Assembly: GCF_015476545.1 (NCBI RefSeq)
Contig: NZ_JADMKV010000045.1
Location: 1 to 38,057 of the forward strand
Length of the DNA stretch: 38,057 bases
Origin: Methylobacter sp. BlB1
GTDB lineage: Bacteria > Pseudomonadota > Gammaproteobacteria > Methylococcales > Methylomonadaceae
Direction: 5' to 3'
Below are positions 1,616 through 24,729 of this stretch, piece by piece. The notes under the pieces were generated by a model that ran no database searches, was not told the DNA's origin, and worked only from the letters and a program-made list of their open reading frames with translations. A program made the position numbers and the translations under genes. Position 1 is the first letter of the stretch, and each line of letters opens with the position of its first letter.

Positions 1616-1763
1616 GGTTTTTCTCCTCGTAAAAGTCCCGCCTTCCGGGACTTCCTTGATCCCCCTACCGGAGAGAATCAAGGAAGTCCCGGAAGGCGGA
1701 CAGGATGAGAACCATCCGAGAAAAACCATGAGCCCAGCCGGGAGGTTTTCCCGGATGGGTTAA
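1616..1763 (-). promoter_or_regulatory. Leader element of the primase unit, with an extra 22-bp hairpin
   Basis: Segment x GGGAAAACC can pair with x' GGTTTTTC. Alternatively CATGGTTTTTCTC pairs perfectly over 13 bp with GAGAAAAACCATG, which covers both the ribosome binding site and the start codon. Unlike the other leaders it has a perfect 22-bp inverted repeat (arms 1639-1660 and 1677-1698, loop 16 nt) between the switch and the RBS. Confidence 0.7.
1639..1698 (-). repeat. Perfect 22-bp inverted repeat
   Basis: Arms 1639-1660 and 1677-1698 are exactly complementary around a 16-nt loop. The stem sits inside the leader of the primase unit. It has no T run, so it is not a normal terminator; it could be an RNase III or stability element, or a small insertion. 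Confidence 0.85.
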
Positions 1764-1772
1764 TTGAAACGC

Positions 1773-1946
1773 CTAGTCAACTAGACGCTTAAAGCCTGAC
1801 TGTTCAAAACATGCGATGACGCACTCTTCAATAGTCAACAGAGAACAAGCGTACCGTTCCAAAATACGGTCCAATACAACATGCCCCGCAATACATACTG
1901 CTATAAAAATCAGCGGCAGCCTCCAAGCCTTCTTCATCGATTTCAT
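1773..1946 (-). CDS. Possible small membrane protein (57 aa)
   Basis: Starts MKSMKKAWR and continues with one hydrophobic segment (LPLIFIAVCIAG), then a cysteine-containing tail ending FKRLVD. The stop lies just before the next leader, as for other genes here. However, the strongest Shine-Dalgarno (AGGAGG) sits 5 nt before a different ATG at 1962 in another frame, which opens a 44-aa ORF (1828-1962, starting MWREVDEID). One or both overlapping frames may be translated. No family recognised. Confidence 0.4.
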   Translation of the reverse strand: MKSMKKAWRLPLIFIAVCIAGHVVLDRILERYACSLLTIEECVIACFEQSGFKRLVD

Positions 1947-1971
1947 CCACTTCGCGCCACATCAAAACCTC

Positions 1972-2811
1972 CTAAACAGTGCGTTCACGGAGAACTTTGA
2001 CGGTGACGGGACGATGAACCGTTTCCTCGACCACGTCATAACCGATCAGCAAAGCGATGAAGTTATGGCGGATCTGATCGCAAGCGGCATCAAAGGCGCA
2101 AACCAAATCGACACGCTCGCGCAGCGCTTCCATTGACCATTCTTCGGCATCAAACGCTTCACCGTGATCAATGCCTTTGCCCGGGTAAACGGCCAATTGC
2201 ACAGGTGGCGTGCTGAAATTACGCCGTGGCTTTCCGCAGACACCACAAGCATCGGTCAGGGAGCAATCCACTAATAGGGCTTTCAGGCGTGTGATTGTCG
2301 ACAATTTCTCATCATTGGAAAGCGGCAAAGCTTCAATGGAAGGCTGACTCAAATAAACACCTAACTGCCAAGCGTTTCGGCTTTTAAGAATTTCCTGAGC
2401 CATAACCTGCTCGTTAGCATCCTCGAACGTGGGCGGCACTTTCTTGAAGTTCCGCTGACCACAGGAAGGACAGTAACTGAGATGCCCCGTTATTTCGAAA
2501 CGAGACTCATATAGCACCAGGTAACCGCCAGAACGGCCATTGGTACCGATGGTATAAAAGCCGTTTTGAGAGTCAGTGAACTCATTGATCGGCCACCGGA
2601 TTTCCTCCCAGAAATCGGTATCCAGCATGTCATAGGCTTTGTCTGATTGCTCAGACGTCAAGCCGAGACGATGGATCTTGATGCAATGGGCATAAGACGA
2701 AGCGCCATTCCATGAATTCATGGTGTTATAGCAATAATGGTCTCTTAAAAAATCAACCATGGCCGAACGGCTGCGACGGTCAACTTTCTTGGCCCAAAAT
2801 GAATTAGTCAT
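1972..2811 (-). CDS. Conserved plasmid-type hypothetical protein with paired Cys motifs (279 aa)
   Basis: The N-terminal half (YNTMNSWNGASSYAH, IKIHRLGL, TNGRSGGYLVLYES) resembles hypothetical proteins I recall from large gammaproteobacterial plasmids. Two CxxC pairs, CPSCGQ (about residue 115) and CGVCGK (about residue 190), suggest one bound zinc. Function unknown. Translation starts directly after the leader at 2812-2894. Confidence 0.75.
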   Translation of the reverse strand: MTNSFWAKKVDRRSRSAMVDFLRDHYCYNTMNSWNGASSYAHCIKIHRLGLTSEQSDKAYDMLDTDFWEEIRWPINEFTDSQNGFYTIGTNGRSGGYLVLYESRFEITGHLSYCPSCGQRNFKKVPPTFEDANEQVMAQEILKSRNAWQLGVYLSQPSIEALPLSNDEKLSTITRLKALLVDCSLTDACGVCGKPRRNFSTPPVQLAVYPGKGIDHGEAFDAEEWSMEALRERVDLVCAFDAACDQIRHNFIALLIGYDVVEETVHRPVTVKVLRERTV

Positions 2812-2894
2812 GATTTTTTCTCCTGCTTAAAAGCAAAAAAGCGGGAAAAATCATGAGTCCCGGCCGGGAAAAAGATTTTTCCCGCGGGGATTAA
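2812..2894 (-). promoter_or_regulatory. Leader element before the 279-aa gene
   Basis: GCGGGAAAAATC pairs perfectly (12 bp) with GATTTTTCCCGC, followed by TTTTTT, a textbook intrinsic terminator. The same downstream arm, read CATGATTTTT, is perfectly complementary (10 bp) to AAAAATCATG at the ribosome binding site and start codon. The loop holds CCCGGCCGGG. Confidence 0.8.
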
Positions 2895-2910
2895 ATAATT
2901 AATTTTTTAA

Positions 2911-3297
2911 TTAATTGATGGCGTCAATTGAAAACTTGTACGATCCTGTTTCATTTCTATCGAAACCGGACGTGTAGCCTTCGCTGACCAGTTTCAACAC
3001 TTCATTCAAAGCAAGCTCCAGATCAAATGCCTCAACGCCTTCGATAGCCAAGCTCATCATCAAACGTTTCTGGGCGCCATGGGCGTAATGCCAGGCTTCC
3101 GCCTGGTTAAATGCATCTTCAGGTGTGGGGGCCGTTGCGGCAATACTGCCTATCGCCCCAAACAGCTGGATGGCGATCCAGGTATGATCCGGCATTTTGC
3201 GGATGACATAATCGCCCAGATGCCCCACCGCATCGCATTGCAAATCACCGTTTAGATTTTCATACGGCTGGCCAATCGAAGTAGAAATTTCTTTCAT
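2911..3297 (-). CDS. Hypothetical acidic protein (128 aa)
   Basis: Starts at MKEISTSIG, right after the leader at 3298-3378. It has a likely alpha/beta core (GDYVIRKMPDHTWIAIQLFG) and a helical acidic C-terminus (LELALNEVLKLVSEG). No catalytic motif or family recognised. Confidence 0.7.
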   Translation of the reverse strand: MKEISTSIGQPYENLNGDLQCDAVGHLGDYVIRKMPDHTWIAIQLFGAIGSIAATAPTPEDAFNQAEAWHYAHGAQKRLMMSLAIEGVEAFDLELALNEVLKLVSEGYTSGFDRNETGSYKFSIDAIN

Positions 3298-3378
3298 CGT
3301 GTTTCTCCAAAATATAGAAAAAATAAATCGGGAAACACTTACGCCGCGACCGGGAAAATGTTTCCCGAACGGGGTTAA
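3298..3378 (-). promoter_or_regulatory. Leader element before the 128-aa gene
   Basis: CGGGAAACA pairs with TGTTTCCCG, followed by a T-rich stretch. The downstream arm GTGTTTC is complementary to GAAACAC of the ribosome binding site GGAGAAACACG-ATG. Confidence 0.7.
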
Positions 3379-3386: not shown

Positions 3387-4988
3387 TTAAACAGCGGTTA
3401 CCGAAGCTACTTCGCCATTGTCATCCAGCACAACTTCAAATGCTTTGCCATAAAGGGCAGGGCAGCCTTGAAAGCTGGGCAGCAATCGTTGGAAGGCATG
3501 GCTAGGATCTTTCAGCACATTGGCGATAACGAACGTGGCAAAATCATCACAATCCGTATCATGCGTGGCTTCCTGATAATCGTCATGTTCTGACTGGAAC
3601 GTTGATACTTGATTAAGGACCGCTGCAGAACCATCGTCTTTAGGCATGACAATGCAATCACCGTTTCCGCTTCCTTGGTAGAAAGCGTGGTCGGCGATCT
3701 CAACAACATCGTTGCCAATCCGAATGCGGTATGCATCGCAGAACTTAACATCAACCCATACCCAACTGCCTTTAAATTGTGAGATATGCGTTTCATGAAC
3801 CAGATCAACAGTGACTTCTTCCTCATCGAGATAGCGAATCATCGAATGAATCCAATGCCCGTTATCCAGATGTCCATAGTAAATCAGGGAATCCCGCATC
3901 CAGGCAAACATGAAACGCGCAGCGCCATCGCTTTGGATATCGCCTTCAATATCGACAATTTCCACCTGACGACTTTCAACTTCTGCGCGAGTCACGGGCT
4001 TTTTCGGATAAGCCGTGAAGCAGCCGTACAGCTCGGAATTGCAGACAGGATAGGACGTGATCTTGCAAACTGCCTGCTGTGGAAGTACATCCACATCATT
4101 GAGCAAAGCTGACAATCCCCAGTGCCTCATCATGTCGAAAAACTGCACAAAATCCTGAGCGGACAATGTGCTTTTGAGCTGAAGCAGACGACTTTCGATG
4201 GCCTGTCTCAACGCAGCCTTAATGAGCTTGAGAACATCAGACTCATCAATGAGCTTGTCCCGATCCGGCAACCGCGCATGGAAACGCGCAGAATCGAGAT
4301 GGACGATATGCGTCGTGCTGCAATACAGATGGGATCGGTAAATAGGTAAGCCCTGCAGATAAACTTCAAAGGCATAATGAGCGCCATCAGGTTTATCCAG
4401 GCCAACCAGATGAATTGAGCCAACCTCAGTATCGATAAAGTCCAGACCGGAATCCAACGCATGCTCTCTTTCCAGGCTTTCACCATTGAAAAAAACCGGA
4501 ATTGGAAAGCCCTTCGCGAAGCGTTTGAGCGTTGATTCGATCAGTTTCGATTCAAACTCAACACCTATCATCGTGATGCGGGTGATGCCATCCCAATCAG
4601 TGACGGGGAATACTGTCACCGGCTTGAACGCCAGAACATCCTCCGTATTAACGGAAATGCGGCCGTTTTTGCTGACGACAGCGATGTGCCGGCAGGCAAA
4701 CAGAGCCGACAGGAAGCCAATACCGAATGGATGCTCTTGAGCAACGACATCCGCATCCCAGCCGGATTCTGCCACAGTTAGCAGCGTTTCGAGGGAACTG
4801 ATGCCACAACCGTCGTCCGTAATCTGAAGAATATTAGTCTCCGGAGCGAATTCGAATTGAACGGCAGTTGCGTCGGCACGACGGGCGTTCTGCAGGAGTT
4901 CGCCAAGTACAGTGGTCTGGTTGGTAAAGCTGAACTTCAAGCTTTTTACCAGGTTGCCTTGGTTCACTTGCATTGAGATTTGTTTCAT
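3387..4988 (-). CDS. GHKL-type ATPase, Hsp90/MutL-like N-terminal fold (533 aa)
   Basis: The start MKQISMQVN at 4988 is chosen because it follows GGAGACAAAACT at normal spacing; the longer reading frame upstream runs through leader RNA. Bergerat-fold motifs are in order: LGELLQNARRAD (about residues 28-39, N-box with the catalytic Glu), ITDDGCGI (about 56-63) and PFGIGFLSALFA (about 86-97). The remaining 430 residues have no recognised domain. Free-standing GHKL ATPases of this size act as conformational clamps in repair or in phage-defence systems; the role here is unknown. First main gene of operon 4. Confidence 0.8.
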   Translation of the reverse strand: MKQISMQVNQGNLVKSLKFSFTNQTTVLGELLQNARRADATAVQFEFAPETNILQITDDGCGISSLETLLTVAESGWDADVVAQEHPFGIGFLSALFACRHIAVVSKNGRISVNTEDVLAFKPVTVFPVTDWDGITRITMIGVEFESKLIESTLKRFAKGFPIPVFFNGESLEREHALDSGLDFIDTEVGSIHLVGLDKPDGAHYAFEVYLQGLPIYRSHLYCSTTHIVHLDSARFHARLPDRDKLIDESDVLKLIKAALRQAIESRLLQLKSTLSAQDFVQFFDMMRHWGLSALLNDVDVLPQQAVCKITSYPVCNSELYGCFTAYPKKPVTRAEVESRQVEIVDIEGDIQSDGAARFMFAWMRDSLIYYGHLDNGHWIHSMIRYLDEEEVTVDLVHETHISQFKGSWVWVDVKFCDAYRIRIGNDVVEIADHAFYQGSGNGDCIVMPKDDGSAAVLNQVSTFQSEHDDYQEATHDTDCDDFATFVIANVLKDPSHAFQRLLPSFQGCPALYGKAFEVVLDDNGEVASVTAV

Positions 4989-5058
4989 AGTTTTGTCTCC
5001 AAAAAGCCGGGAGACAAAACTTCCCCCACTGGGAGCAGAATTGTTCCCGGCGGGTTGA
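4989..5058 (-). promoter_or_regulatory. Inner leader element before the GHKL ATPase gene
   Basis: CCGGGA-ACAA pairs with TTGT-TCCCGG. The arm AGTTTTGTCTCC is perfectly complementary over 12 bp to GGAGACAAAACT, the ribosome binding site. This is one of the longest RBS-masking helices of the family. Confidence 0.75.
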
Positions 5059-5109
5059 TAAAGTAAAGGTCGCCTGCCATACGGAGCATGGGGCGATAAT
5101 GGCCTGAAG

Positions 5110-5167
5110 CCAGACAAAAACCATGAGTCCCGACCGGGAAAACATAGATTTCCCCTGGACAGGTTGA
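5110..5167 (-). promoter_or_regulatory. Outer leader element at the head of operon 4
   Basis: A second leader copy (CAACCTGTCCAGGGGAAA ... CCCGGTCGGGACTCATGG) lies directly downstream of the operon-head repeat. It is not followed by its own long gene. An ORF starting MLRMAGDLYF runs from here into the inner leader and ends with TGA overlapping the ATPase start, so it may be a coupling ORF. Confidence 0.5.
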
Positions 5168-5171: not shown

Positions 5172-5280
5172 ACGGCAAAGCCGTTTAAAAAATAATCACG
5201 CCGTAGCGCTTCATCGATTCCTTATTTAAAGTGCTGAACTGGCACTATTTTTGAGTTCTCTCAGAGAACTACAAAATTCC
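5172..5280 (-). promoter_or_regulatory. Operon-head repeat, copy 1 (operon 4 promoter and leader)
   Basis: One of four near-identical blocks. On the minus strand it holds a palindrome GTTCTCTGAGAGAAC, an imperfect palindrome AGTGCCAGTTCAGCACT, an AT-rich stretch (TTTAAATAAGG), a tiny ORF with its own SD and the hairpin ACGGCTTTGCCGT followed by GTTTT. I read it as promoter, operator and attenuator; clear -35/-10 boxes are not visible, so an activator may be needed. Confidence 0.6.
5185..5214 (-). CDS. Putative leader minigene MKRYGVIIF
   Basis: AAGGAATCG-ATG gives a Shine-Dalgarno site at usable spacing. The 9-codon ORF lies between the palindromes and the small CGGC/GCCG hairpin. The other three copies encode only MKRD, MKRV or MKRF at the same place. 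Translation is inferred only. Confidence 0.3.
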   Translation of the reverse strand: MKRYGVIIF

Positions 5281-5321
5281 GTCTTTCCAGAATATTCGAG
5301 CCAAGCATTCTGGAAAGACGG
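5279..5321 (-). terminator. Operon 3 end: perfect 15-bp stem-loop
   Basis: CCGTCTTTCCAGAAT (5279-5293) and its exact complement (5307-5321) flank a 13-nt loop. On the minus strand it is followed by AATTTTG, making a likely terminator between operons 3 and 4. A GACGG segment just upstream could compete for the 5' half of the stem. Confidence 0.6.
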
Positions 5322-5392
5322 CTCAGACATATTATGCCTGAATCCGTCTAAATGTTAAGTTCTAAAGACGCCAAAACTGCGCGACTTTTGAA

Positions 5393-6031
5393 TCACTGTT
5401 CAGGCGATGGGTTCTTTCGCCGCCTGAACTCATTCATATCGCCATTATCAACGCGATCATAGATTTCCTCAACGGACAAAGTTAGTCCGATGGAATTGAA
5501 GGTCACAGCACCGCCCAGGTAATAGTATTCAGACCGCCAATTGCTAGACTTCCGGAATACTTGCACGGCAACGATTCCCGACTCTATCAGGACGTATTCC
5601 TGCAAAGATGGCAGGTTAAGATACCGTATCAATTTAGTCGTGGTATCTCTCTCGCGGGTTGTTTTCGATAGGACCTCGACAATAATTACTGGCGAGTTGC
5701 AGAAATAATCGCTGCTGGCCATTTTGTCGCAGGAAACCAAAACATCTGGATACGTGTAATCCTTGCCTATGCGGACTTTCATGTCCGATGAAAAGGTAAC
5801 GCAAGGCGTGCCTTTCAAGTGATTTCGAAACTCACCCAGGACATTAGCGGTTATACAATTATGGTTGTATCCGGCTCCAGCCATTGCATAGGCTCGGCCA
5901 TCGAAATATTCGTGCTTCACCTCTGATTCGGCTTCCGTGTCCAGATACTCCTCCTCAGTCATGCAGATCCCATCTTGATCATCTTCGATAGCCATAGAAT
6001 TCACTCCGGCTGATGTAGTATTTAGTTTCAT
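5393..6031 (-). CDS. Uma2-family (DUF820) PD-(D/E)xK-like nuclease (212 aa)
   Basis: Shows the usual Uma2 layout: YLDTEAESEVKHEYFDGRAYAMAGAG at the N-terminus, then DMKVRIGKDYTYPDVLV with the Asp and the PDV signature, VIIVEVLSKTTRERDTTTK (the ExL...K part), and LPSLQEYVLIE. Such proteins are predicted restriction-type endonucleases with mostly unknown targets. Start taken at 6031 (MKLNTTS), which follows AAGGAAAACA; an in-frame ATG (MAIEDDQ) lies further in. Last gene of operon 3. Confidence 0.85.
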   Translation of the reverse strand: MKLNTTSAGVNSMAIEDDQDGICMTEEEYLDTEAESEVKHEYFDGRAYAMAGAGYNHNCITANVLGEFRNHLKGTPCVTFSSDMKVRIGKDYTYPDVLVSCDKMASSDYFCNSPVIIVEVLSKTTRERDTTTKLIRYLNLPSLQEYVLIESGIVAVQVFRKSSNWRSEYYYLGGAVTFNSIGLTLSVEEIYDRVDNGDMNEFRRRKNPSPEQ

Positions 6032-6108
6032 TGTTTTCCTTGTATTGTTAGCAAAAAAAACAGGGAAAACAAGAACCCGAACAGGGATTGTTTTCCCTGC
6101 GGGGTTAA
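6032..6108 (-). promoter_or_regulatory. Leader element before the Uma2 gene
   Basis: AGGGAAAACA pairs with TGTTTTCCCT, followed by G and eight T. The arm TTGTTTTCC is complementary over 9 bp to GGAAAACAA at the ribosome binding site and the A of ATG. Confidence 0.8.
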
Positions 6109-6129: not shown

Positions 6130-6924
6130 TTAACTGAGTTCATGCGCAAAAACTTCGACTTCTGAATCATGCGCGCTTTTGATTGTGCAAATATCGTCCT
6201 GATGAAGCAGCTTTCCAGACGGAATATCAACAATGGTATAAACACCGCTACAGATTCCGTCATCAGGATCGTTCCAGAAAACCTCATCACCGATCGACAA
6301 CTCACTCGGCAAAAAATCTTTGGCCGATTTTGCATCGACATACACGGCATCCTTACCAGAGGCATTGGGCACAAATGCGGTATTCTCAGGCAATTTTGTG
6401 GCCGAGGCGACATCAAGTACCCATCCCTTGTCATTTGACCAGTAACCACGCTCAGAAACGGATCTGATAACGTACAGAGGTGTAGCGTCTAAGTCGGTAA
6501 AACCGATGAGCCGGTACTGGTCTTTCCATGTGGAATCGCAGTTGGAACAACCCACTTGGCCTTTGGCAGTCAGACCATCAGCATCCAGTACAACATTGGC
6601 TTCAATATCTCTGCTGCCGCAATTTGGGCAACATTGTCCGTGCTGGACAAGATAATTGGCCTGCTGTTTATCGATTGCCGGAACGTCTTCGCCCAAAGCT
6701 TTAAAAACACTGGAAACAAGTTCAGCGTTTTCAATAGTCGAATGCATGATGCCGACAAACTCCGTATCATCTTCGAGGACTGCTATCTCGTCAGCATCAG
6801 CGCCTTCCACATCGAGATCCTGAATAACGACCCGAATGGGTGTTGAACAGTTCGCGTAAATAGCATGCACCAGGCCGCCTTCAAGATGAATGACAAGGCG
6901 AATTTCGTTGGTATTAATAGTCAT
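6130..6924 (-). CDS. Hypothetical zinc-ribbon protein (264 aa)
   Basis: The N-terminus (MTINTNEIRLVIHLEGGL) is followed by an acidic region. A central zinc ribbon is visible as CCPNCGSRDIE (about residues 97-107) and VGCSNCDSTWKDQYRL. The C-terminal third (DEVFWNDPDDGICSGVYTIV) resembles a small beta-barrel. No family recognised. Preceded by the leader at 6925-6997. Confidence 0.75.
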   Translation of the reverse strand: MTINTNEIRLVIHLEGGLVHAIYANCSTPIRVVIQDLDVEGADADEIAVLEDDTEFVGIMHSTIENAELVSSVFKALGEDVPAIDKQQANYLVQHGQCCPNCGSRDIEANVVLDADGLTAKGQVGCSNCDSTWKDQYRLIGFTDLDATPLYVIRSVSERGYWSNDKGWVLDVASATKLPENTAFVPNASGKDAVYVDAKSAKDFLPSELSIGDEVFWNDPDDGICSGVYTIVDIPSGKLLHQDDICTIKSAHDSEVEVFAHELS

Positions 6925-6997
6925 AGTGTTTCTCCAAAAATAAAAAAAGGGGAAACACCATGCGCCCTGATGGGGAGTGTTTCCCCAGTAGGGTTAA
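6925..6997 (-). promoter_or_regulatory. Leader element before the 264-aa gene
   Basis: A clear example of the family. ACCCT can pair with the loop's AGGG. GGGGAAACAC pairs perfectly with GTGTTTCCCC, followed by seven T. GTGTTTC pairs alternatively with GAAACAC of GGAGAAACACT-ATG. Confidence 0.8.
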
Positions 6998-7011: not shown

Positions 7012-8106
7012 TTATTCGCTCATAAGAACGGCATTAAGGTTGGGTAAAATATCACCCCAATTCCAATCTTCCTTTTCAGGCCGATTAATACTCGTCGTGT
7101 TGAGCGCAATACCCAAAATACCAGCCAGATTGCTGGCGGCTTCATTAACCTGATCAACGGAATCGAAGTCGGGATCTGCCGTTAAAACAATCTTGCCATC
7201 AAGCACCAAGCCAACATCACCCGAGGAGAGATTGACCAGAACCAGTGAGTGCGCTGGGGTCTTAGCGTCGGTCTCAATCATGGCGCTACTGGAGGCTTCG
7301 GTGGCATACAGCTTCCGTTTCTCAAGCAGCATTTCCTCAGTAATATCGGTCAGTTTTTCGACGGCAAAGAACTCGAGAATCGAATCCTTCACTTCGACGT
7401 AGTGAGGCCCCACATGCTCAGTCAAGCCATACACCAATTCGTCGCTTGGGTAATCATCGTCCTCAAGCATGAGTATGTCCTTCAAAGGCAAGTCCAGAAG
7501 CCGGTCAGTGACATCCAGATCGCAGTCGCCATCGATATTCATCGCGGTATCGTGCACCCAGGCTTGCGGCTGGAAGCGCGCGATCACACGACGAAGAACA
7601 ACATATCGACTACTGTCGGCTAGTTCCTCAGGTCTACGAAACGTAACAACTCCATTAGGAAAAGCAATCAAATACCAAAGACCGTCCTCATCAATAGAAA
7701 CTTGGGATATAGTGCCTTTGGCATTGGGAGCGATAAAAATACAATCGCCGGATTCGGTCGACATTTCGCCTTTGATGGAAATAATGCGGGTGCCGGCCAG
7801 GATAGGGCTCAACCTGGTTTGGTAAGTCTTATCAGGCGTGAAGTCTTGATATTTCCAGTTGTACTTCGAAGCAAGATTTCTTGCGAATGCACGAAGCTCA
7901 TTAAGCCAGACTGCACTTGCATCGGCGCAAACAAGACAAGTGTCATCGGCATGCCTGGCATAGATGGAGAAAAACTGAGGGTTGTCATCATCTACCCAGT
8001 GTTCTTGGCCGTTATTCTGCACGCCATGAATCTCCAGCGCTGTGTAAGTGCCATGATTATGCTCAACAGAGTCGGTATACAGATTTAAAAAGTGTTTAGT
8101 TTCCAT
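7012..8106 (-). CDS. Hypothetical protein (364 aa)
   Basis: The start METKHFLNLY at 8106 follows GGAGAACCCTA. The N-terminal part (GTYTALEIHGVQNNGQEHW, FSIYARHADDTCLVCADAS) looks alpha/beta; the middle has a beta-rich stretch (ISQVSIDEDGLWYLIAFPNG). No catalytic motif recognised. Similar in style to the other acidic unknowns of operon 3. Confidence 0.7.
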   Translation of the reverse strand: METKHFLNLYTDSVEHNHGTYTALEIHGVQNNGQEHWVDDDNPQFFSIYARHADDTCLVCADASAVWLNELRAFARNLASKYNWKYQDFTPDKTYQTRLSPILAGTRIISIKGEMSTESGDCIFIAPNAKGTISQVSIDEDGLWYLIAFPNGVVTFRRPEELADSSRYVVLRRVIARFQPQAWVHDTAMNIDGDCDLDVTDRLLDLPLKDILMLEDDDYPSDELVYGLTEHVGPHYVEVKDSILEFFAVEKLTDITEEMLLEKRKLYATEASSSAMIETDAKTPAHSLVLVNLSSGDVGLVLDGKIVLTADPDFDSVDQVNEAASNLAGILGIALNTTSINRPEKEDWNWGDILPNLNAVLMSE

Positions 8107-8182
8107 TAGGGTTCTCCAAAAAGTAACGGGGAACCCAATACGCACCCCATGGGAAACGATTGAAGTTCCCCAGGTGGGTTAA
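8107..8182 (-). promoter_or_regulatory. Leader element before the 364-aa gene
   Basis: GGGGAAC pairs with GGTTCCCC, followed by a T-rich stretch. The arm GGGTTC is complementary to GAACCC of GGAGAACCCTA-ATG. The upstream AACCCA can also pair with TGGGTT. Confidence 0.7.
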
Positions 8183-8200: not shown

Positions 8201-8857
8201 TTATTTGGCTGTAGCTTGAGCAATCCTTTGTTCAACATCCTCATGCTCATTACATACGGCCTGAATGGCGCCGTCTTCATCCTCGAACATGCCAAGCATT
8301 TGCTCAATCTGACATCTCATGCTCTGCATAACATTGCCAGCAGAGTAAAGAGCGGATTCAAGCTTACCTGCGCGATCTCTGACTCGATGCAATTCAGCTT
8401 CCAGCCATTGCAGCCGTTCGATCTCTTCCAGTAAGGATGGAAGCGTATTGTGCGCTTTTACGATAAAGAAAAGATTCGCTATGGCTTCATCTTCTGAAAT
8501 GAAAGCGGAACCCTTATTCATGACCTGAACAATTTCGGGTAGATACTGGCTCATGGACTGGACATATTCACAATCATCGCTCACAACCCAGTAATCACTT
8601 GTACATTCATTCAGGGCTGATTTCAGATCCTTCAGATTGGCTTCCAATGCGGAATCCATGCCGTTTCGTTTCAGCACTTCGTCAATCTGCTGCAGGCGCT
8701 GAAGATCCGCCAGAATGTCCGGCATCAGATTTTGAGCCTGGCCGATAAAAGTGACATTGTTCTCCTCATGAATGAGTACTGGCACTTGGTCGGCGGCCCA
8801 TTGTCCTTGAGTAGCATTTGAGAAAGCCGAAATTAAAGTTTGATATTTATTATTCAT
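8201..8857 (-). CDS. Hypothetical coiled-coil protein (218 aa)
   Basis: Start at MNNKYQTLISAF (8857), behind GGAGATCACACC. Several heptad-rich stretches, notably LLEEIERLQWLEAELHRVRD near residues 148-167, suggest coiled coils. The C-terminus is acidic (MLGMFEDEDGA). First gene of operon 3; function unknown. Confidence 0.7.
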   Translation of the reverse strand: MNNKYQTLISAFSNATQGQWAADQVPVLIHEENNVTFIGQAQNLMPDILADLQRLQQIDEVLKRNGMDSALEANLKDLKSALNECTSDYWVVSDDCEYVQSMSQYLPEIVQVMNKGSAFISEDEAIANLFFIVKAHNTLPSLLEEIERLQWLEAELHRVRDRAGKLESALYSAGNVMQSMRCQIEQMLGMFEDEDGAIQAVCNEHEDVEQRIAQATAK

Positions 8858-8935
8858 GGTGTGATCTCCAAAAGTTAAAAAACTCAGGGAAACACCGGCC
8901 ACCGTAACGGGGAATGTTTCCCCGTTATGGGTTAA
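8858..8935 (-). promoter_or_regulatory. Leader element before the 218-aa gene
   Basis: GGGGAAACA can pair with TGTTTCCC. A strong competing hairpin TAACGGGGAA/TTCCCCGTTA (10 bp, 3-nt loop) uses the same upstream arm. GGTGT pairs with ACACC at the ribosome binding site. Confidence 0.7.
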
Positions 8936-8940: not shown

Positions 8941-9049
8941 ACGGCAAAGCCGCTAAAATAATCACGCTAATCACGCTTCATCGATTCCTTATTTAGAGTG
9001 CTGAACTGGCACTTGCTTTTGAGCTCTCTTAGAGAACAACAAAAATTCC
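8941..9049 (-). promoter_or_regulatory. Operon-head repeat, copy 2 (operon 3 promoter and leader)
   Basis: Same layout as the other three copies: near-palindrome GTTCTCTAAGAGAGC, AGTGCCAGTTCAGCACT, CTCTAAATAAGG, tiny ORF and a CGGCTTTGCCG hairpin followed by TATTTTTT. Precedes the leader of the 218-aa gene. Confidence 0.6.
8967..8981 (-). CDS. Putative leader minigene MKRD
   Basis: ATG-AAG-CGT-GAT-TAG behind AAGGAATCG. Four-codon ORF at the same place as in the other operon-head repeats. Translation inferred only. Confidence 0.25.
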   Translation of the reverse strand: MKRD

Positions 9050-9094
9050 GTCTTTCCGCAATGCTCGATCCAGGTAAGCATTCTGGAAAGACGG
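9048..9094 (-). terminator. Operon 2 end: 18-bp stem-loop
   Basis: Arms 9048-9065 and 9077-9094 are complementary except at two positions, followed on the minus strand by AATTTTTG. Same element as at 5279-5321 and 18876-18918. Confidence 0.6.
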
Positions 9095-9206
9095 TACAGA
9101 AATGAATCTGTGCCGTCTAAATGTTAATCTACCCAGAGAAGGAAAAAACGCCTTGTCCAGGCAGGGAAAAATGGCCAATCAAAAAAGATTGGCCATAAGG
9201 CAAAGA

Positions 9207-13810: not shown

Positions 13811-13817
13811 AAGCCTT

Positions 13818-15533: not shown

Positions 15534-15563
15534 CAGCTTTTCCTCTTTAAAGATTAAAAACAA

Positions 15564-17708: not shown

Positions 17709-18677
17709 TTAGTTACTCCAGGCATCGCCGAACACGTCTTGAGCGATACGGTGGATAGCTTCGCGTTGGGCCGGTTCCGCACGCAAGGTGAGGGCACGAT
17801 CCAGCGAGTAAGCCAGCGCATTGGGAGCGCGCTTGTAAGCAATCATGAGATTGGTCCAGCGTACCAATGTTCGGGTGGACATCGTGACACTCAACTCGCC
17901 TGAACCATCAGCACCACCGATAAACAACTTACGGATCTCATTGGCAACCTTGATCATGTTCTCTGTCAACGCTTCCATCACGGAATCGACAGGAATGCCC
18001 ATGCTGGCCAAGACGGATTTCAGGATGTCCTTCTCAACAGAAGCTTCGGGATAACCGACTTCCATTAATCTGAAGCGATCGAGAAACGCAAGGTTCTGCT
18101 GCATGATGCCTTGATAGAGGCCGCTTTGATCGCCTTGGCCGGCCGAGTTGCCGGTAGCAATCAAACGGAACTTGGGATGAGGCTTAATCACTTCGCCGCC
18201 ATTTTGAGGAATCATCAAAGGCTGCCCTTCTATGATATCGTTCAACCCGGCCAGTTCGGCCGGGTCCATCAAGTCAATCTCGTTCAAGATCAACAGATGT
18301 CCATCCCGGACAGCCTTGGCCAAAGGACCATGGACGAAAGTCATGGATCCGTTGACGAGCATGAATTGACCAATGAGGTCATTCAATTCAAGACGACCAT
18401 GGCAGGTCGCTTGTTGAACGGGCCAATTAAGACGGGATGCCACCTGGCAGATCAGCGAAGTCTTGCCGGAACCTGTAGGTCCGGTCAGATACAACGCATC
18501 ACCGAGCGGATTGGCCAGAAAAGCCAATACATCCCTTAGATGTTCATTTCTGAACAAGTATTCCTTTTTGGCCGGAATGGAAGGATGTTGATCATCCTCA
18601 AAACCTTCCACCATCATGGTAGCAGGTGCCTGAATTCCGAATGTTTGGCCGATTGGGAATTTTTTTTGAGTATTCAT
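17709..18677 (-). CDS. MoxR/CobS-like AAA+ ATPase (322 aa)
   Basis: The start MNTQKKFPIGQ at 18677 follows AAGGAAATACACA; upstream in-frame sequence is leader RNA. Walker A is GPTGSGKTS (about residue 70), Walker B LLILNEIDLMD with Asn in place of the usual first Asp, and sensor 1 LIATGNSAGQGD. The C-terminal lid includes VTMSTRTLVRW. It probably forms a hexameric remodelling ring acting with the VWA protein (9207-11054), the WGR protein and the DUF3150-like protein. First gene of operon 2. Confidence 0.9.
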   Translation of the reverse strand: MNTQKKFPIGQTFGIQAPATMMVEGFEDDQHPSIPAKKEYLFRNEHLRDVLAFLANPLGDALYLTGPTGSGKTSLICQVASRLNWPVQQATCHGRLELNDLIGQFMLVNGSMTFVHGPLAKAVRDGHLLILNEIDLMDPAELAGLNDIIEGQPLMIPQNGGEVIKPHPKFRLIATGNSAGQGDQSGLYQGIMQQNLAFLDRFRLMEVGYPEASVEKDILKSVLASMGIPVDSVMEALTENMIKVANEIRKLFIGGADGSGELSVTMSTRTLVRWTNLMIAYKRAPNALAYSLDRALTLRAEPAQREAIHRIAQDVFGDAWSN

Positions 18678-18756
18678 TGTGTATTTCCTTAGTTGTTGAC
18701 CAAGGAAAACACACGTAGCCCGACCGGGGAACATGGATTTCCCCTGGACAGGTTAA
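18678..18756 (-). promoter_or_regulatory. Leader element before the AAA+ gene
   Basis: AACCTGTCCAGGGGAAA, then CCCGGTCGGG in the loop, then GTGTGTTTTCCTT. The last arm pairs with AAGGAAATACAC at the ribosome binding site (TTTCCTT plus GTGT). Confidence 0.7.
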
Positions 18757-18765: not shown

Positions 18766-18877
18766 GGCGGCAAAACCGCTTAAAAATAGTCACGCTAAAC
18801 GCGCTTCATCGATTCCTTATTTAGAGTGCTGAACTGGCACTTGCTTTTGAGTTCTCTTAGAGAACTACAAAAATTCC
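18766..18877 (-). promoter_or_regulatory. Operon-head repeat, copy 3 (operon 2 promoter and leader)
   Basis: Perfect palindrome GTTCTCTAAGAGAAC, AGTGCCAGTTCAGCACT, CTCTAAATAAGG, tiny ORF, then GCGGTTTTGCCGC followed by a T-rich stretch. The terminal hairpin differs from copy 1 (ACGGC/GCCGT) by compensatory base changes. Confidence 0.6.
18795..18809 (-). CDS. Putative leader minigene MKRV
   Basis: ATG-AAG-CGC-GTT-TAG behind AAGGAATCG, at the same place as in the other operon heads. Translation inferred only. Confidence 0.25.
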   Translation of the reverse strand: MKRV

Positions 18878-18918
18878 GTCTTTCCAGAATACTCGGCACA
18901 AGCATTCTGGAAAGACGG
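18876..18918 (-). terminator. Operon 1 end: perfect 15-bp stem-loop
   Basis: Arms 18876-18890 and 18904-18918 are exactly complementary, with a 13-nt loop, followed on the minus strand by AATTTTTG. Nearly the same sequence as the ends of operons 2 and 3. Confidence 0.6.
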
Positions 18919-18998
18919 CTCAGGCATATTATGTCCTGTATCCGTCTAAATGTTAAATGCTAAAGACGGCAAAATTGCACGCCTTTAGCAAAGAGGAC

Positions 18999-19445
18999 TT
19001 ACCGCTTGCCGCCTGCACTACAAACCAGGATCGCCGCCATCGTCTTTTCGGAAGCAAACTGCCAGTTGATGCTGGACCAATAAGCAAGCTCGAAACCTGA
19101 CTGTACCACGCGAACGTAAGTGCAAGCTGCCGAAGGCCAGCGAATCTCGCGGCCGTTTGCGAGCTTAACCGCTCTCTCAGCGTCATAGACATGGTCTATC
19201 GCAGAGATGGCGTGAGCAAGTTCTTCTTGCGTCCATCCGTGATAATCGGCCAAACGTTTCGCAGTCGCCTTAGGAGGCATGATGTCGACCGTTTCAGTGA
19301 GCTGAGCCAATGAGCTATAGCCCAGATCGGCACAAGCTGGATTGTCCACGTAATGACCATTGCTTACCCTGAAGAACAGATAACCGTCTTCAGTCAGTAC
19401 CGCTTCGGGCTCAACAGGTTTTATAGTGTCTTTATCAAATGACAT
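18999..19445 (-). CDS. Hypothetical protein (148 aa)
   Basis: Starts MSFDKDTIKPVEPEA behind GGAGTTACTAAT. A middle segment, YHGWTQEELAHAISAIDHVYDA, looks helical. No family recognised. Last gene of operon 1. Confidence 0.7.
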   Translation of the reverse strand: MSFDKDTIKPVEPEAVLTEDGYLFFRVSNGHYVDNPACADLGYSSLAQLTETVDIMPPKATAKRLADYHGWTQEELAHAISAIDHVYDAERAVKLANGREIRWPSAACTYVRVVQSGFELAYWSSINWQFASEKTMAAILVCSAGGKR

Positions 19446-19513
19446 ATTAGTAACTCCTTGAAAAGTAAAAATCGCGGAGTTACTCCCTGGCGGGAATAAG
19501 TCCGCGAGGGTTC
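19446..19513 (-). promoter_or_regulatory. Leader element before the 148-aa gene
   Basis: CGCGGA pairs with TCCGCG around a CCCGCCAGGG loop, followed by ATTTTTA. AGTAACTCC is perfectly complementary over 9 bp to GGAGTTACT, the ribosome binding site. The stem sequence differs completely from that of its neighbours. Confidence 0.75.
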
Positions 19514-20408: not shown

Positions 20409-20933
20409 TTAGATTAAGTGCGTCAAAGGCGAGAAAAACGCCAATAACATCAGTTTCCGATCAATATATTGCCGAGCTGCTCGAAAACCGTTCAGCAACG
20501 AATTTGTCATCGCTTTGGGATCGACGCGCAAAACACTGACCATAAACTGATCGGCCTGTTTGGCTGGCGTTTTACTATCAACACGCCAGACATCGCCTTG
20601 TGAGAGCGGGTAAGCGCTCAGAAACTCATGCTCTTTAATCATTTTTGAATGGCCGTCGACTCTTCTGAAAAGGTAATGATCGCCGGATTTCGCACCCAGG
20701 AAAATGTTCGTCAAAAATAAATCCTCATTAACGAACAAACTGAGCTCAAGGTCATGATCTTTAGCAAGATCAATCACTTCCAAGCTGGTAAAAAGGTCTT
20801 TCTCCAGATTTTTTATAGTGCCTTGGCAAGCCTTTTTGGCAAAATCCTGGGCTATTTCGATATCGCCAGCCAGTAAAGCCTGGCAAGCTTCAATCGCATA
20901 TTTCTCTACATCGGATACAGATAAAGTGTTCAT
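20409..20933 (-). CDS. Hypothetical protein (174 aa)
   Basis: Starts MNTLSVSDVEKYAIEAC behind GGAGAAACACC. N-terminal helical pair (ACQALLAGDIEIAQDFAKKACQG), then a beta-rich middle (DLELSLFVNEDLFLTNIFLGAKSG), and a hydrophobic C-terminus (LMLLAFFSPLTHLI). No family recognised. Confidence 0.65.
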   Translation of the reverse strand: MNTLSVSDVEKYAIEACQALLAGDIEIAQDFAKKACQGTIKNLEKDLFTSLEVIDLAKDHDLELSLFVNEDLFLTNIFLGAKSGDHYLFRRVDGHSKMIKEHEFLSAYPLSQGDVWRVDSKTPAKQADQFMVSVLRVDPKAMTNSLLNGFRAARQYIDRKLMLLAFFSPLTHLI

Positions 20934-21013
20934 GGTGTTTCTCCTAAATCAAAATCAGAATGGTGAAACACCAAGCCCCAGACCGGGAAATGGTGTTTCC
21001 CCGGTTGGGTTAA
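20934..21013 (-). promoter_or_regulatory. Leader element before the 174-aa gene
   Basis: GGGGAAACACCA pairs with TGGTGTTTCACC. TGGTGTTTC is also perfectly complementary to GAAACACCA at the ribosome binding site and the A of ATG. Loop CCCGGTCTGGGG. Confidence 0.75.
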
Positions 21014-21014: not shown

Positions 21015-21362
21015 TTAATGCAAGAACTTGCGTATTTTTGCCAGACGGTACAGTACCGAATCCCGAATGGTATCGGGATCAAGTCCTGTCAATCGGCAGC
21101 AATTGTCAAAACTGAATGGATTGGGATCATTGTCATCCGTTATCCACTTGTGTATTTCGACCACGGTTTTCAATGAGCAGCGGTTGTCAAACAGATTCCG
21201 CAAAGAATCCTGCAGAAGACATTCGCAGACATGGATAATCTCCTCTTCAGACCAAGGCGGTGTTTCTTCCAGCAAGGGTTCCGTGCTGTGAAGCCATAGC
21301 CACTCATCCTCGATCCAATCGAGATTAAGCGAAGGATCAAATCCTCGGGATCGTCGGCGCAT
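21015..21362 (-). CDS. Conserved hypothetical protein (115 aa)
   Basis: Start at MRRRSRGFDPSLN behind GGAGGCACT. The C-terminal stretch NPFSFDNCCRLTGLDPDTIRDSVL resembles a motif I recall from proteobacterial hypothetical proteins of similar size. Probably helical. Function unknown. Confidence 0.65.
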   Translation of the reverse strand: MRRRSRGFDPSLNLDWIEDEWLWLHSTEPLLEETPPWSEEEIIHVCECLLQDSLRNLFDNRCSLKTVVEIHKWITDDNDPNPFSFDNCCRLTGLDPDTIRDSVLYRLAKIRKFLH

Positions 21363-21424
21363 AGTGCCTCCAAAAAAAGGGGAACACATGCACCCAGCGG
21401 GGACAGTGTTCCCCGGTGGGTTAA
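21363..21424 (-). promoter_or_regulatory. Leader element before the 115-aa gene
   Basis: GGGGAACAC pairs perfectly with GTGTTCCCC, followed by eight T. ACCCA upstream can pair with TGGGT in the loop, a pseudoknot option. RBS complementarity is short. Confidence 0.75.
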
Positions 21425-22445: not shown

Positions 22446-22579
22446 TGTCGATCTCCCGTTTCACGCAAGCTCCAGAATTTTCTGAGGACGCCGAACCCTT
22501 GGCGACGAATAATCGTCGGGGTGTCGTACTCACGGTAGTCAATGCCGTACCACAACTTGTTGATTATTATTATCGTCAT
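22442..22579 (-). CDS. Small protein coupled to the exonuclease (45 aa)
   Basis: Starts MTIIIINKLWYGIDYREYD behind GGAGGCATT and ends LRETGDRQ, with its TGA overlapping the exonuclease ATG. It is the leader-controlled first cistron of this unit. Function unknown. Confidence 0.65.
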   Translation of the reverse strand: MTIIIINKLWYGIDYREYDTPTIIRRQGFGVLRKFWSLRETGDRQ

Positions 22580-22645
22580 AATGCCTCCAAAAAATAATGG
22601 GAAGCACGATGAACCACAAGGGAACGATGCTTCCCAAGCGGGTTA
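22580..22645 (-). promoter_or_regulatory. Leader element before the 45-aa ORF and exonuclease
   Basis: GGGAAGCA pairs with TGCTTCCC, followed by ATTATTTTTT. The downstream arm is partly complementary to GGAGGCA of the ribosome binding site. Confidence 0.7.
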
Positions 22646-22666: not shown

Positions 22667-22777
22667 CTTAAGAACCGTTCCGAATAACTCAGGAAAGGTC
22701 AGATCTCCGATTAATGCCAGCGTAAAAGTCAGCGCGATGAACAAAAAGGATATGCAGTTGATAAGTATGTCTTTCAT
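22667..22777 (-). CDS. Small single-pass membrane protein (36 aa)
   Basis: MKDILINCISFLFIALTF begins a hydrophobic stretch of about 20 residues, ending PELFGNGS. The ribosome binding site CGGAGCATCTT lies in a leader element, which supports it as a real gene. Function unknown. Confidence 0.55.
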
Positions 22778-22847
22778 AAGATGCTCCGAAAAAATAAAGG
22801 GCATCCTTGATCCCCATGCGGGCATTCAGAATGCCCGAAAGGGTTGA
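22778..22847 (-). promoter_or_regulatory. Leader element before the 36-aa gene
   Basis: GGGCATTC pairs with GGATGCCC, followed by TTTATTTTTT. GATGC is complementary to GCATC of the ribosome binding site. A short competing hairpin GGGCATTC/GAATGCCC is also perfect. Confidence 0.7.
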
Positions 22848-22859: not shown

Positions 22860-23888
22860 TTAAGCTAATGTGGCTCTTGTTTCACTTAGAGGCGTTTTAC
22901 GTTGCCTGTTGACAGTAGCGTTTTGGCCCTGAGCTTGCTTGCCAGAATCTGATGCAGAATCGGTGTTCTGAGCTACATCAGTTTTTGGCGCAGGTGCTTG
23001 CTGTGCTGAAGCTGGCTTAGCGTTAGGGCCAGCATTGGGCGCAGAGGCTTGTCGTGTTGGACCTGGCTTGGCATTGGTATCAGCAGGAAGCTGAGCTACT
23101 TCAACCGCCACTTTAGCCGCTTTCAGTCCATGTCTCATGAAATCCAGATCGAATCCTGAGAAAGTTTCACCCGCATACTCCAGCGCGGCTTGCCAAGAAC
23201 CTTCTTGGGTAGCGCGCTTGATCAGGCGGGGCAACATCTGCTTGGCTCTCTCACTGGCTTCGGCTTGAGCTTCATTTTCAATAATGCGCTCAGCCTGGCC
23301 TTCGATAATGCGTTCAGCTTCGTCCTGGTCATAAATACCGGTGAAACCGAAAGCAATACGGGAACACTGGATTAAGGCTTTATGGCGCAACATGCGTTTT
23401 GTATGCGACTGCCAGGGGCCGTTAATACTGTAAGGCTGGTTGTTTTTACCTATGCCGTGGAAAGGAGGTCGATACACTTCATCAAGAAATTCCGGGATAC
23501 GGACCGGATGCGTTCTGCCTTTGCGGTAGATCACACACTCGATTGATGCAGGACAAGGTTTGGCATCCGGCTCAGTCACGATGTTTTCATCGTAAATGAA
23601 CTCAAGGCCATCCATATCAGGATGCTGGTTGATGATGCGTGACCAGCCATCGACAGAAACCACAGGTACGATACCGTTCTGTTTGTCGGGGTAAGCGAAG
23701 ATTTCCTTAGTGAAAGGATTAAGTCCGTATTGGTCAGCAACGATCAATAAAGCCGTCATCTGGGCATCAGTGACTTCGCCGTCTTTGACTTTGAAAGCGG
23801 TCGCCTTCAACGTACTGATCAGCTCTCTTTCATCCGAGAAATTGAATTTTTCTGCGAATTTCTGAAACAGTGATGATTGCTTGCTCAT
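22860..23888 (-). CDS. bet: Bet/RecT-family single-strand annealing protein (342 aa)
   Basis: The start MSKQSSLFQKFAEKF at 23888 follows GGAGTCACACC. The Bet core is clear: LKATAFK, MTALLIVADQYGLNPFTKEIFAYPDKQNGIVPVVSVDGW, the PASIECVIYRKGRTHPV segment and GPWQSHTKRMLRHKALIQCSRIAFG. The C-terminal 90 residues are a Pro/Ala/Gln-rich linker and basic tail. It anneals complementary single strands during recombination, with the exonuclease and SSB of the same operon. Confidence 0.95.
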   Translation of the reverse strand: MSKQSSLFQKFAEKFNFSDERELISTLKATAFKVKDGEVTDAQMTALLIVADQYGLNPFTKEIFAYPDKQNGIVPVVSVDGWSRIINQHPDMDGLEFIYDENIVTEPDAKPCPASIECVIYRKGRTHPVRIPEFLDEVYRPPFHGIGKNNQPYSINGPWQSHTKRMLRHKALIQCSRIAFGFTGIYDQDEAERIIEGQAERIIENEAQAEASERAKQMLPRLIKRATQEGSWQAALEYAGETFSGFDLDFMRHGLKAAKVAVEVAQLPADTNAKPGPTRQASAPNAGPNAKPASAQQAPAPKTDVAQNTDSASDSGKQAQGQNATVNRQRKTPLSETRATLA

Positions 23889-23968
23889 GGTGTGACTCCT
23901 AAAATAAAAATGAATTAATGCATGGACACCATGAGTCCCAAGGGACAAATAGTGTCCCAATGGGAAAA
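23889..23968 (-). promoter_or_regulatory. Leader element before bet
   Basis: GGGACAC can pair with GTGTCC. CATGGTGT is perfectly complementary over 8 bp to ACACCATG at the start codon. The loop holds GTCCCTTGGGAC, a 5-bp inner hairpin. Confidence 0.7.
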
Positions 23969-24030
23969 TTTAAAATTAAGCGATGCTCAGAACAGACGGA
24001 GCAACGCCGTGATTAACCAGCTAAAGACGC

Positions 24031-24447
24031 CTAGAACGGCTCCTCGTTATCAAAATCATCGTAGCCTGCATAAGCATCCGATGGAGTTGATGATGGCGCA
24101 GGGCCGGAAGTTGCCTTATCCGATTTGGAACCGAGCATTCTCAAGACATCGGCATGGATTTCAGTTGTATACCGATCAGCGCCACTGTTATCTTGCCATT
24201 TCCGGGTACGGCTAGGTCCCTCAAGCAAGACTAGAGCGCCACTTTTAAGGTGATCGCGGGCAATTTCGGCAAGCTTGCCGAACAGAACAACACGGTGCCA
24301 TTCTGTCCGTTCTTGACGCTTGTCAGATTTGTCTCGCCAGGTTTCCGTCGTGGCCACGCTCAAGTTGGCAATTGCCTTTTGCTGCGCGGTGTACCGAATT
24401 TCTGGATCAGCGCCTAAACGACCAATAAGAACTGTTTTGTTGTACAT
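24031..24447 (-). CDS. ssb: Single-stranded DNA-binding protein (138 aa)
   Basis: OB-fold SSB: MYNKTVLIGRLGADPEIRY, then IANLSVATTETWRD, TEWHRVVLFGKLAEIARD and LLEGPSRTRKWQDNSG. The C-terminus is a short linker and the acidic tip DDFDNEEPF, the usual partner-binding tail. It works with Bet and the exonuclease in the same operon. Confidence 0.97.
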   Translation of the reverse strand: MYNKTVLIGRLGADPEIRYTAQQKAIANLSVATTETWRDKSDKRQERTEWHRVVLFGKLAEIARDHLKSGALVLLEGPSRTRKWQDNSGADRYTTEIHADVLRMLGSKSDKATSGPAPSSTPSDAYAGYDDFDNEEPF

Positions 24448-24524
24448 TTGAAAGTCTCCTAATAGACAAAAAAGAAAAAAGGAGACCATGCCCCGTTGCT
24501 GGGAATGATCTCCCAGAGGGGTTA
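24448..24524 (-). promoter_or_regulatory. Leader element before ssb
   Basis: GGGAGATCA pairs with TGGTCTCC, followed by TTTTTT. GTCTCC is perfectly complementary to GGAGAC of the ribosome binding site. The first segment TAACCCC contains the stop codon of the upstream 43-aa ORF, so a terminating ribosome would cover it. Confidence 0.8.
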
Positions 24525-24653
24525 GTTGGATGTCAGCGCTTCAATTAAAGCGTGACGATTGGCAATTAAAGCCGAGCCTGTCTTCAATGTCTGATTGGCA
24601 GACCAAACAGCGCCAATACTGAACATCATCAGAACAAGAATTAATAGTCTCAT
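24522..24653 (-). CDS. Small secreted or membrane protein (43 aa)
   Basis: MRLLILVLMMFSIGAVWSA looks like a signal peptide or membrane anchor; the remainder (NQTLKTGSALIANRHALIEALTSN) is about 24 residues. First gene of operon 1, behind its own leader with RBS GAGGGAAATAAC. Function unknown. Confidence 0.6.
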   Translation of the reverse strand: MRLLILVLMMFSIGAVWSANQTLKTGSALIANRHALIEALTSN

Positions 24654-24729
24654 GTTATTTCCCTCGGAAAATACCAGAGGAAACACACGAAGCCCGGCCG
24701 GGGAACATGGATTTTCCCTGGACAGGTTG
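24654..24729 (-). promoter_or_regulatory. Leader element at the head of operon 1
   Basis: CCAGGGAAA pairs with TTTCCTCTGG (one bulge). TTTCCTC pairs with the RBS GAGGGAAA. Loop CCCCGGCCGGG. The sequence closely resembles the outer leader of operon 4 and the AAA+ leader, the other operon-first copies. Confidence 0.7.

Follow-up and report, generated by a model that had tools for sequence, protein, structure and literature searches.

Leaders with two predicted, mutually exclusive folds precede most gene blocks of a Methylobacter contig and recur on SXT-type, IncC and other mobile elements

The stretch of DNA analyzed here, called the window throughout, is the entire contig C167 (38,057 bp) of Methylobacter sp. 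BlB1, whose genome of 4.87 Mb is assembled in 227 contigs. According to Pfam, genes on its minus strand include ssb, recT/bet, a YqaJ exonuclease, a CbbQ/CobS-type AAA ATPase, DUF3150, a CobT-like VWA gene, a HATPase-domain gene and a toprim primase. Before most of the gene blocks sits a leader of the order CCC - GGG.x - CCC - GGG - x' - SD.x - AUG, in which x differs from gene to gene, x' can pair with x, and a copy of x recurs next to the Shine–Dalgarno sequence (SD) of the ribosome-binding site (RBS). The top match of the window in the plasmid collection is a 349-kb plasmid of Methylobacter sp. YRD-M1 (locus L003; 49% of the query at 92.5%). The genes which the window shares with an SXT-type element (L006) stand there in the same order, and part of the common genes is rearranged in IncC elements.

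The original prediction, made from the letters of this contig alone, had described about 24 such leaders. The family as such and the segment order from CCC to ATG were seen again across the window leaders; the number was not, as we count 22 leaders at start codons, one of which (gene 12537) is degenerate, plus one tandem partial copy. The leaders are 62–82 nt long, or 148 nt in the one that bears an insert. A covariance model (R1) finds 21 of them at E<=0.1, every one on the minus (gene) strand, and 19 of these 21 were seeds of the model, the non-seeds being 1613–1760 and 12535–12601. One more leader, at 19443–19512, was detected by folding and missed by R1 at this threshold. R1 rests on 67 seeds: of 70 leaders seven were dropped, and four window leaders were then added by hand. 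The leaders are listed below with their R1 scores in bits; "both folds" refers to the two predicted folds described after the list.

1613–1760, minus: leader of the open reading frame (ORF) starting at 1615; 35.2 bits, non-seed; x':RBS duplex of -18.9 kcal/mol across the insert
2809–2890, minus: leader of gene 1972–2811; 29.2 bits; both folds
3295–3374, minus: leader of gene 2911–3297; 37.7 bits; both folds
4986–5055, minus: leader of the HATPase-domain gene (Pfam) starting at 4988; 42.5 bits; both folds
about 5090–5165, minus: tandem partial leader upstream of the preceding one, seen in the sequence; duplex of -14.8 kcal/mol; no R1 match at E<=0.1
6029–6105, minus: leader of gene 5393–6031; 39.7 bits; both folds
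6922–6994, minus: leader of gene 6130–6924, the best example; 56.9 bits; both folds
8104–8179, minus: leader of the gene starting at 8106; 31.2 bits; both folds
8855–8931, minus: leader of the gene starting at 8857; 39.2 bits; both folds
11052–11117, minus: leader of the VWA/CobT-like gene 9207–11054 (Pfam); 42.3 bits; both folds
12000–12071, minus: leader of the ORF starting at 12002; 36.3 bits; both folds
12535–12601, minus: degenerate leader of the gene starting at 12537, weak x':RBS pairing; 25.9 bits, non-seed; predicted best fold 1:3, not 3:4
12963–13036, minus: leader of the gene starting at 12965; 21.1 bits; both folds
16877–16955, minus: leader of the DUF3150 gene 16157–16879 (Pfam); 39.7 bits; both folds
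18675–18753, minus: leader of the CobS/CbbQ-type AAA gene (Pfam) starting at 18677; 26.3 bits; both folds
19443–19512, minus: leader of gene 18999–19445; closed and alternative fold; missed by R1 at E<=0.1
20931–21010, minus: leader of gene 20409–20933; 47.7 bits; RBS-sequestered fold; pre-RBS fold 1:2, not 1:3
21360–21421, minus: leader of the gene starting at 21362; 45.3 bits; RBS-sequestered fold
22577–22643, minus: leader of the small ORF starting at 22579, ahead of the exonuclease gene; 35.4 bits; both folds
22775–22844, minus: leader of the small ORF starting at 22777; 38.8 bits; both folds
23886–23966, minus: leader of the RecT/Bet gene 22860–23888 (Pfam); 35.8 bits; RBS-sequestered fold; pre-RBS fold 1:2, not 1:3
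24445–24522, minus: leader of the ssb gene 24031–24447 (Pfam); 37.5 bits; both folds
24651–24727, minus: leader of the small ORF starting at 24653, first in its gene block; 28.6 bits; RBS-sequestered fold

In the best example (6922–6994, minus strand) a GGGG:CCCC hairpin with x in the loop sits inside an outer CCC:GGG pair; this hairpin makes up segments 1 and 2. Segment 3 (x') is the reverse complement of the RBS (segment 4), in many leaders over the whole span from the SD to the AUG. Folding of the full-length RNA predicts the pairings 1:2 and 3:4, with the RBS hidden, as the structure of minimum free energy (MFE) in 20 of the 21 window leaders, 12537 being the exception. When the RNA is cut after x', the predicted fold is 1:3 in 17 of the 21; 20933 and 23888 fold 1:2 instead, and 21362 and 24653 were cut at a misplaced x'. 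In the wider set of 11 elements, 137 of 146 leaders are predicted to pair 1:3 while the RBS is still to be transcribed. These predictions agree with the claim that x' takes part in two exclusive folds.

Two leaders deviate in layout. Between x' and the RBS of the ORF 1615 leader lies an inverted repeat of ~70 nt (about 1625–1700), and the x':RBS complementarity is kept. Gene 4988 is preceded by a second, tandem anti-RBS leader (5090–5165), the x' of which complements the RBS of gene 4988.

The pairings were compared with chance expectation in several ways. Against 230 dinucleotide shuffles that kept the RBS, the joint score of the x:x' and x':RBS duplexes lay beyond the 5% shuffle tail in 21 of 23 candidates (the misses being 12537 and 20087) and beyond the 1% tail in 14 of 23, and none of seven leaderless-class genes passed. 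The passes of 1615, 21362 and 24653 are weak evidence because the best-scoring triple was not built from the leader's own x'.

It had also been claimed that x, x' and the RBS copy change together, and this was borne out by own-partner tests, by orthologous leaders and by column counts. The own-partner test took elements with at least five leaders, the leaders being picked for their core pattern without regard to the RBS; L005 (two leaders) and L022 (none) were left out. For the 18 leaders tested in the window the own partner beats the partners of the other leaders in both pairings, with p=5e-5, which is the permutation floor. In 11 of 11 elements a leader's own x':RBS and own x:x' pairings were each stronger than pairings with partners taken from other leaders (p=5e-5 each), and among the pooled 160 leaders the own partner was the best one in 67 (3:4) and 88 (1:3), where 11 were expected. 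Six of the seven elements tested outside the training set agree (p 5e-5 to 0.0072); the model by which they were found has the 3:4 pairs built in, and L046 belongs to the SXT type (radC 98% identical). L051 and L054, with three usable leaders each, stand outside these seven. Between orthologous leaders the own partner was stronger than that of the orthologue in 57 of 72 cases (3:4) and 63 of 72 (1:3), or in 39 of 53 and 45 of 53 when the leaders picked by complementarity were removed.

Column counts were made on an alignment of the 150 best matches guided by the covariance model (A3), which improved on a plain MAFFT alignment (A2), where per-column covariation was blurred because x, x' and the RBS were out of register. 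Cells changed on both sides numbered 174 for the closed fold (1:2 with 3:4) against 80.8 in shuffled alignments, and 162 against 104.0 for 1:3, with none of 500 shuffles as high. Paired cells and the covariation score exceeded all 500 shuffles for both folds, and every slid register fell below the true one in paired cells, two-sided changes and covariation score, again for both folds. To sum up, the computations show two predicted pairings which exclude each other and which co-change within and between elements.

A small RNA or antisense RNA shared by all leaders is very improbable in the light of these tests. Such an RNA could use the common CCC and SD letters as a seed, and the x' of other leaders does bind an RBS slightly more strongly than shuffled x' (-10.58 vs -9.24 kcal/mol), but gene-specific x and x' with a preference for the own partner are the opposite of what a common trans-acting RNA needs. 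Selection for orthogonality among the leaders of one element was considered as well and is unsupported.

The leaders are not confined to the contig. A covariance-model search, proposed together with the original prediction, finds the family on SXT-type, IncC, Alcaligenes, Halomonas and methanotroph elements and on other islands. In 21 loci there are 285 R1 matches at E<=0.1, many of them seeds. Eight of the 285 matches lie against the gene strand, and one of these (L018, 46–108) does stand before a gene of that strand. In some stretches the same architecture, with its gene-specific pairing code, is repeated in ~20 copies (21 matches in the window, 20 in the IncC stretch L021); the gene strand of the SXT-type L006 has nine. 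Within the host genome all 14 matches at E<=1e-3 fall on the window contig (150 of 375 candidates scored). Genomes positive for R1 number at least 22 of 61 in the family at E<=1e-3, and at least 21 of 369 in the class and at least 12 of 398 in the phylum at E<=1e-4, the own genome included in each; the class and phylum counts are lower bounds, obtained with stricter Infernal filters and few candidates scored per genome.

The cobS/DUF3150/VWA gene module was rejected as the defining context of the leaders, because L047, L048, L051, L052 and L054 (stretches of 4.9–19 kb) carry leaders while the cobS, VWA and DUF3150 genes are absent there. Genes behind the leaders in such stretches include one for a RadC relative (L048) and, as taken by eye, genes for DUF3577-type, helicase and methyltransferase proteins. 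Islands that lack the module in the stretches fetched share the leader type with SXT-type elements and IncC plasmids. A better correlate is the MOBH relaxase: TraI_2 was present in 12 of 21 leader-positive class genomes and in 34 of the 348 others (Fisher p 4.5e-7; 2.1e-6 without the own genome), while the control relaxase TrwC showed no link to leaders among the class genomes (2/21 vs 26/348, p 0.67). The relaxase is not sufficient, though: in a stretch of a Providencia MOBH plasmid (L022) none of 25 genes had a leader by pattern or energy, and there was no R1 match at E<=0.1. The Allochromatium locus L005 gave a single weak R1 match (E 0.031). In the host genome TraI_2 lies on contig C193, apart from the window contig.

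Leaders mark translation units, as had been proposed. When a leader was defined as an R1 match at an annotated start, none of 146 leader-bearing genes in 11 elements started within 30 nt of the previous stop codon, compared with 90 of 182 other genes. Nine window genes lack an R1 match; seven of them start within 17 nt of the end of the preceding gene or overlap it, and of the remaining two, 19445 has the leader missed by R1 and 20087 has no canonical leader. A constant distance between stop codon and leader was not found among 137 leaders.

This arrangement bears on the idea that the repeats act in the DNA, as single-strand hairpins in conjugation or recombination, with the RBS copy as a by-product. 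It is true that the leaders belong to conjugative elements and have ssb, recT and exonuclease genes as neighbors. Their pairing, however, takes in the SD and often the AUG, genes closely behind a stop codon go without leaders, and in nine fetched stretches 72 of 73 R1 matches run up to the start codon of an ORF of 30 aa or more, a count without a null in which the AUG is part of R1 itself. The ORF check is a weak control, as two matches against the gene strand in L049 passed too, and 9 of the 82 listed matches (E 0.011 and above) were left out of the count. Taken together, we regard an action in the DNA as scarcely credible.

We consider it likely that the leaders are cis-acting translational attenuators. 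The explanation as a whole, by which each leader would be a decoy of its gene's own RBS, is in our judgement probable. Segment 1 (GGG + x) would imitate the RBS, and segment 2 (CCC) would hold segment 1 in a hairpin enclosed by the outer CCC:GGG pair. Segment 3 (x') would act as antisense to the RBS, which is segment 4 (SD and x, often with the AUG). Pairing of 1:2 and 3:4 would hide the RBS, and pairing of 1:3 would leave it free. Of the two states the closed one has the greater predicted stability, and 1:3 is predicted to be the fold that transcription makes available first. The calculated barrier from the open to the closed state is high, with a median of 14.1 kcal/mol (a findpath upper bound) in the 96 of 146 leaders for which it could be computed. 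The predicted cost of freeing the SD has a median of 6.4 kcal/mol and exceeds 2 kcal/mol in 140 of 146 leaders.

Could the 1:3 helix rather be an intrinsic terminator and the alternative fold its antiterminator? The x:x' pairing had been called terminator-like and often followed by a run of 6–8 T. As a feature of the family this fails: only 16 of 146 leaders have six or more T among the 8 nt that follow the x:x' helix, and no such run is seen in any of the 35 SXT-type and Shewanella IncC leaders (L004 0/8, L006 0/9, L007 0/18). In the window itself the helix is followed by such a run in just 6 of 20 leaders, so that T-runs do occur but not often. The tract is commonest in the methanotroph elements (4 of 12 leaders in the Methylobacter plasmid L003 and 3 of 11 in Methylomonas UP202, L008, besides the window), which counts in favor of a terminator. 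By inference, an RBS copy of x would be needless for a terminator, the antiterminator fold would hide the RBS so that both states would be off, and serial leaders would silence the distal genes. Transcription attenuation was rejected as the mechanism of the family on the U-tract count, and we hold it to be improbable.

A second alternative keeps the attenuator and has it opened either by a trans-acting factor, such as a protein recognizing the constant CCC-GGG-CCC-GGG core or by ribosomes which end at the upstream stop codon and disturb 1:2. The core stays constant while x varies, as a common recognition site would require, and in 29 of 137 leaders no more than 12 nt separate its start from the upstream stop, with 54 more at up to 40 nt; in addition, SGI1, an IncC-dependent mobile element, is described as opening its masked repA RBS by coupling (excerpted text of PMC7826253). 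The other 54 of 137 leaders are more than 40 nt from the preceding stop, and some have no close upstream gene, such as 18677 (gap of 321 nt) and 24653 (none listed upstream). Ribosome coupling can therefore not be general, and we consider opening by a trans-acting factor or by ribosomes rather unlikely.

Several observations weigh against the decoy attenuator and have to be set beside the evidence given above. The mean predicted accessibility of the SD is 0.22 behind native leaders and 0.38 in leaderless genes, a moderate difference; it is 0.31 when another leader of the same element is placed in front, and 55 of 146 native leaders are below 0.2. The barriers given above come from a model without proteins or ribosomes, and 50 of the 146 leaders dropped out of their calculation. 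Where a U-run follows 1:3, as in some window leaders, the "open" fold may terminate transcription. The 11 agreeing elements are not 11 independent tests, because close relatives are among them (L004/L006; L007/L019/L021), and in L052 (five leaders) the own-partner effect was not significant (p 0.25 and 0.15).

The covariation has its weak sides, too. The number of pairs with two-sided change was not above the shuffles in either fold (matched by 340 and 323 of 500), and the further pair types of the closed fold were reached by 30 of 500. Kinship alone can lift sequences above these shuffles without any structure. For 1:3, the best diagonal of that same alignment was taken as the register, the alignment itself having been fitted to the closed fold alone, and most R1 seeds had passed a complementarity filter. 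Between close orthologues (75 pairs, 78–97% identical) compensations were few: two-sided kept, one-sided kept and broken pairs numbered 6/23/37 for 3:4, 9/30/71 for the core and 1/16/24 for 1:3, and among these 75 pairs no triple compensation was found. A mapping of orthologues at low identity (397 pairs, mean identity 67%) kept just 32–40% of the changed pairs; it was set aside because mapping is unreliable at that identity.

What would trigger the attenuator is a further question, and the timer that we propose here, set by the nascent mRNA, is a tentative answer. The 1:3 pairing would form first on the nascent RNA, fresh mRNA would be translatable until it has refolded and closed, and the output would therefore be a pulse tied to ongoing transcription. 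The leaders would be closed by default and perhaps open on nascent mRNA alone. Extended to the elements of the MOBH lineage, this becomes a distributed, gene-by-gene RNA timer with private RBS decoys, in which translation comes from fresh mRNA only and no shared regulator is needed; this extension is doubtful, though possible. If it is true, induction or entry of the element would bring a pulse of recombination, replication and anti-host functions, with silence at steady state.

Some further features of the contig were observed. Its ends (1–160 and 37898–38057) are inverted copies of each other with 144 of 160 bases identical; the first 40 bases recur inside the YRD-M1 plasmid stretch L003, and because of this the ends may be an assembly break at a repeat and not the end of a linear plasmid. 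A group II intron lies at 13736–16106 on the minus strand (Rfam RF00029 and RF02012) and encloses a long ORF (13818–15563), the corresponding place in L003 being annotated as maturase. By eye, a similar block of ~150 bp with a AGTTCTCTTAGAGAACT-like palindrome is found upstream of four gene blocks, at about 5200–5330, 8960–9120, 18780–18950 and 24750–24850, and this block may be a shared promoter/operator. Repeated GTAGGTTTA(A/G)CCCGCA(A/G) units, also noted by eye, occupy 26500–26760 between the ORFs 25178–26269 and 26850–27677. They look like iterons of a replication origin; ORF 25178–26269 matches an annotated replication protein in L003.

Among known systems, the leaders are predicted to share with four-segment translational attenuators in general the two exclusive folds, one of them hiding the RBS. 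In the erm and cat attenuators a ribosome stalled by the drug on a leader peptide allows segments 2 and 3 to pair, which frees the RBS. The four-segment logic, the masked RBS and the two exclusive folds are alike, but here it would be the 1:3 pairing that frees the RBS, and segment 1 would be a decoy of segment 4.

The radC RNA of Rfam (RF01754) is likewise a cis element on mobile elements. It differs from the leaders in sequence and structure (its model has 149 positions), and it was rejected as their identity, as it has no match at any leader in the stretches scanned. In L054 a radC RNA at 712–854 (85.8 bits) ends 22 nt before the leader 877–955, and the two may work in series. Nor was any other bacterial family of Rfam 15 found at a leader position in the window, L007, L010, L047, L048, L052 or L054 (whole window, L007 and L010 at gathering thresholds, window 1–25200 at E<=5, and L047, L048, L052 and L054 at E<=2). 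Two eukaryotic matches below the cut-off overlap leaders on the opposite strand, namely mir-616 (E 0.032) on the insert of 1613–1760 and DAOA-AS1_2 (E 0.27) in L052.

The closest described system is found in SXT, where, according to the excerpted text of a review (PMC4542580, citing Garriss et al. 2013), a strong translational attenuator upstream of bet strongly hinders bet/exo expression, acting on translation rather than transcription, and is present in IncA/C plasmids too. The claim that no described family has this form thus holds for the bacterial families of Rfam at the leaders scanned and not for this one reported member. R1 matches occupy the same position upstream of bet in the SXT-type L006 (17627–17690) and in the IncC loci L019, L021 and L007, and an RBS-sequestering leader of the present layout was seen upstream of bet/recT in SXT-type, IncC, Methylobacter and Methylomonas elements by R1 and by aligning the bet leaders, those of the SXT-type and Shewanella elements having been R1 seeds. 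Judging from its position, the published bet attenuator would be the same stretch of RNA as the R1 bet leader. That review describes the attenuator for bet; here the bet leader stands as one among a family that spans many genes and elements. A second relative is S004-repA of the IncC-dependent SGI1, where a stem–loop masking SD and start codon opens through coupling to the translation of an overlapping leader ORF (PMC7826253); the RBS is masked as in our leaders, but the excerpt concerns a single gene and its description has no decoy segment.

In the literature, with most subscription journals outside the search, the bet statement alone was found and no description of the leaders as a gene-by-gene family. 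What was known already is the RBS-masking kind of attenuator and one member, bet. New, as far as our searches reach, are the family, which can be found by a covariance model, its per-gene pairing code, the logic of a decoy whose two folds both show co-change, the occurrence on SXT-type, IncC, Halomonas, Alcaligenes and methanotroph elements and on other islands, and the link to MOBH.

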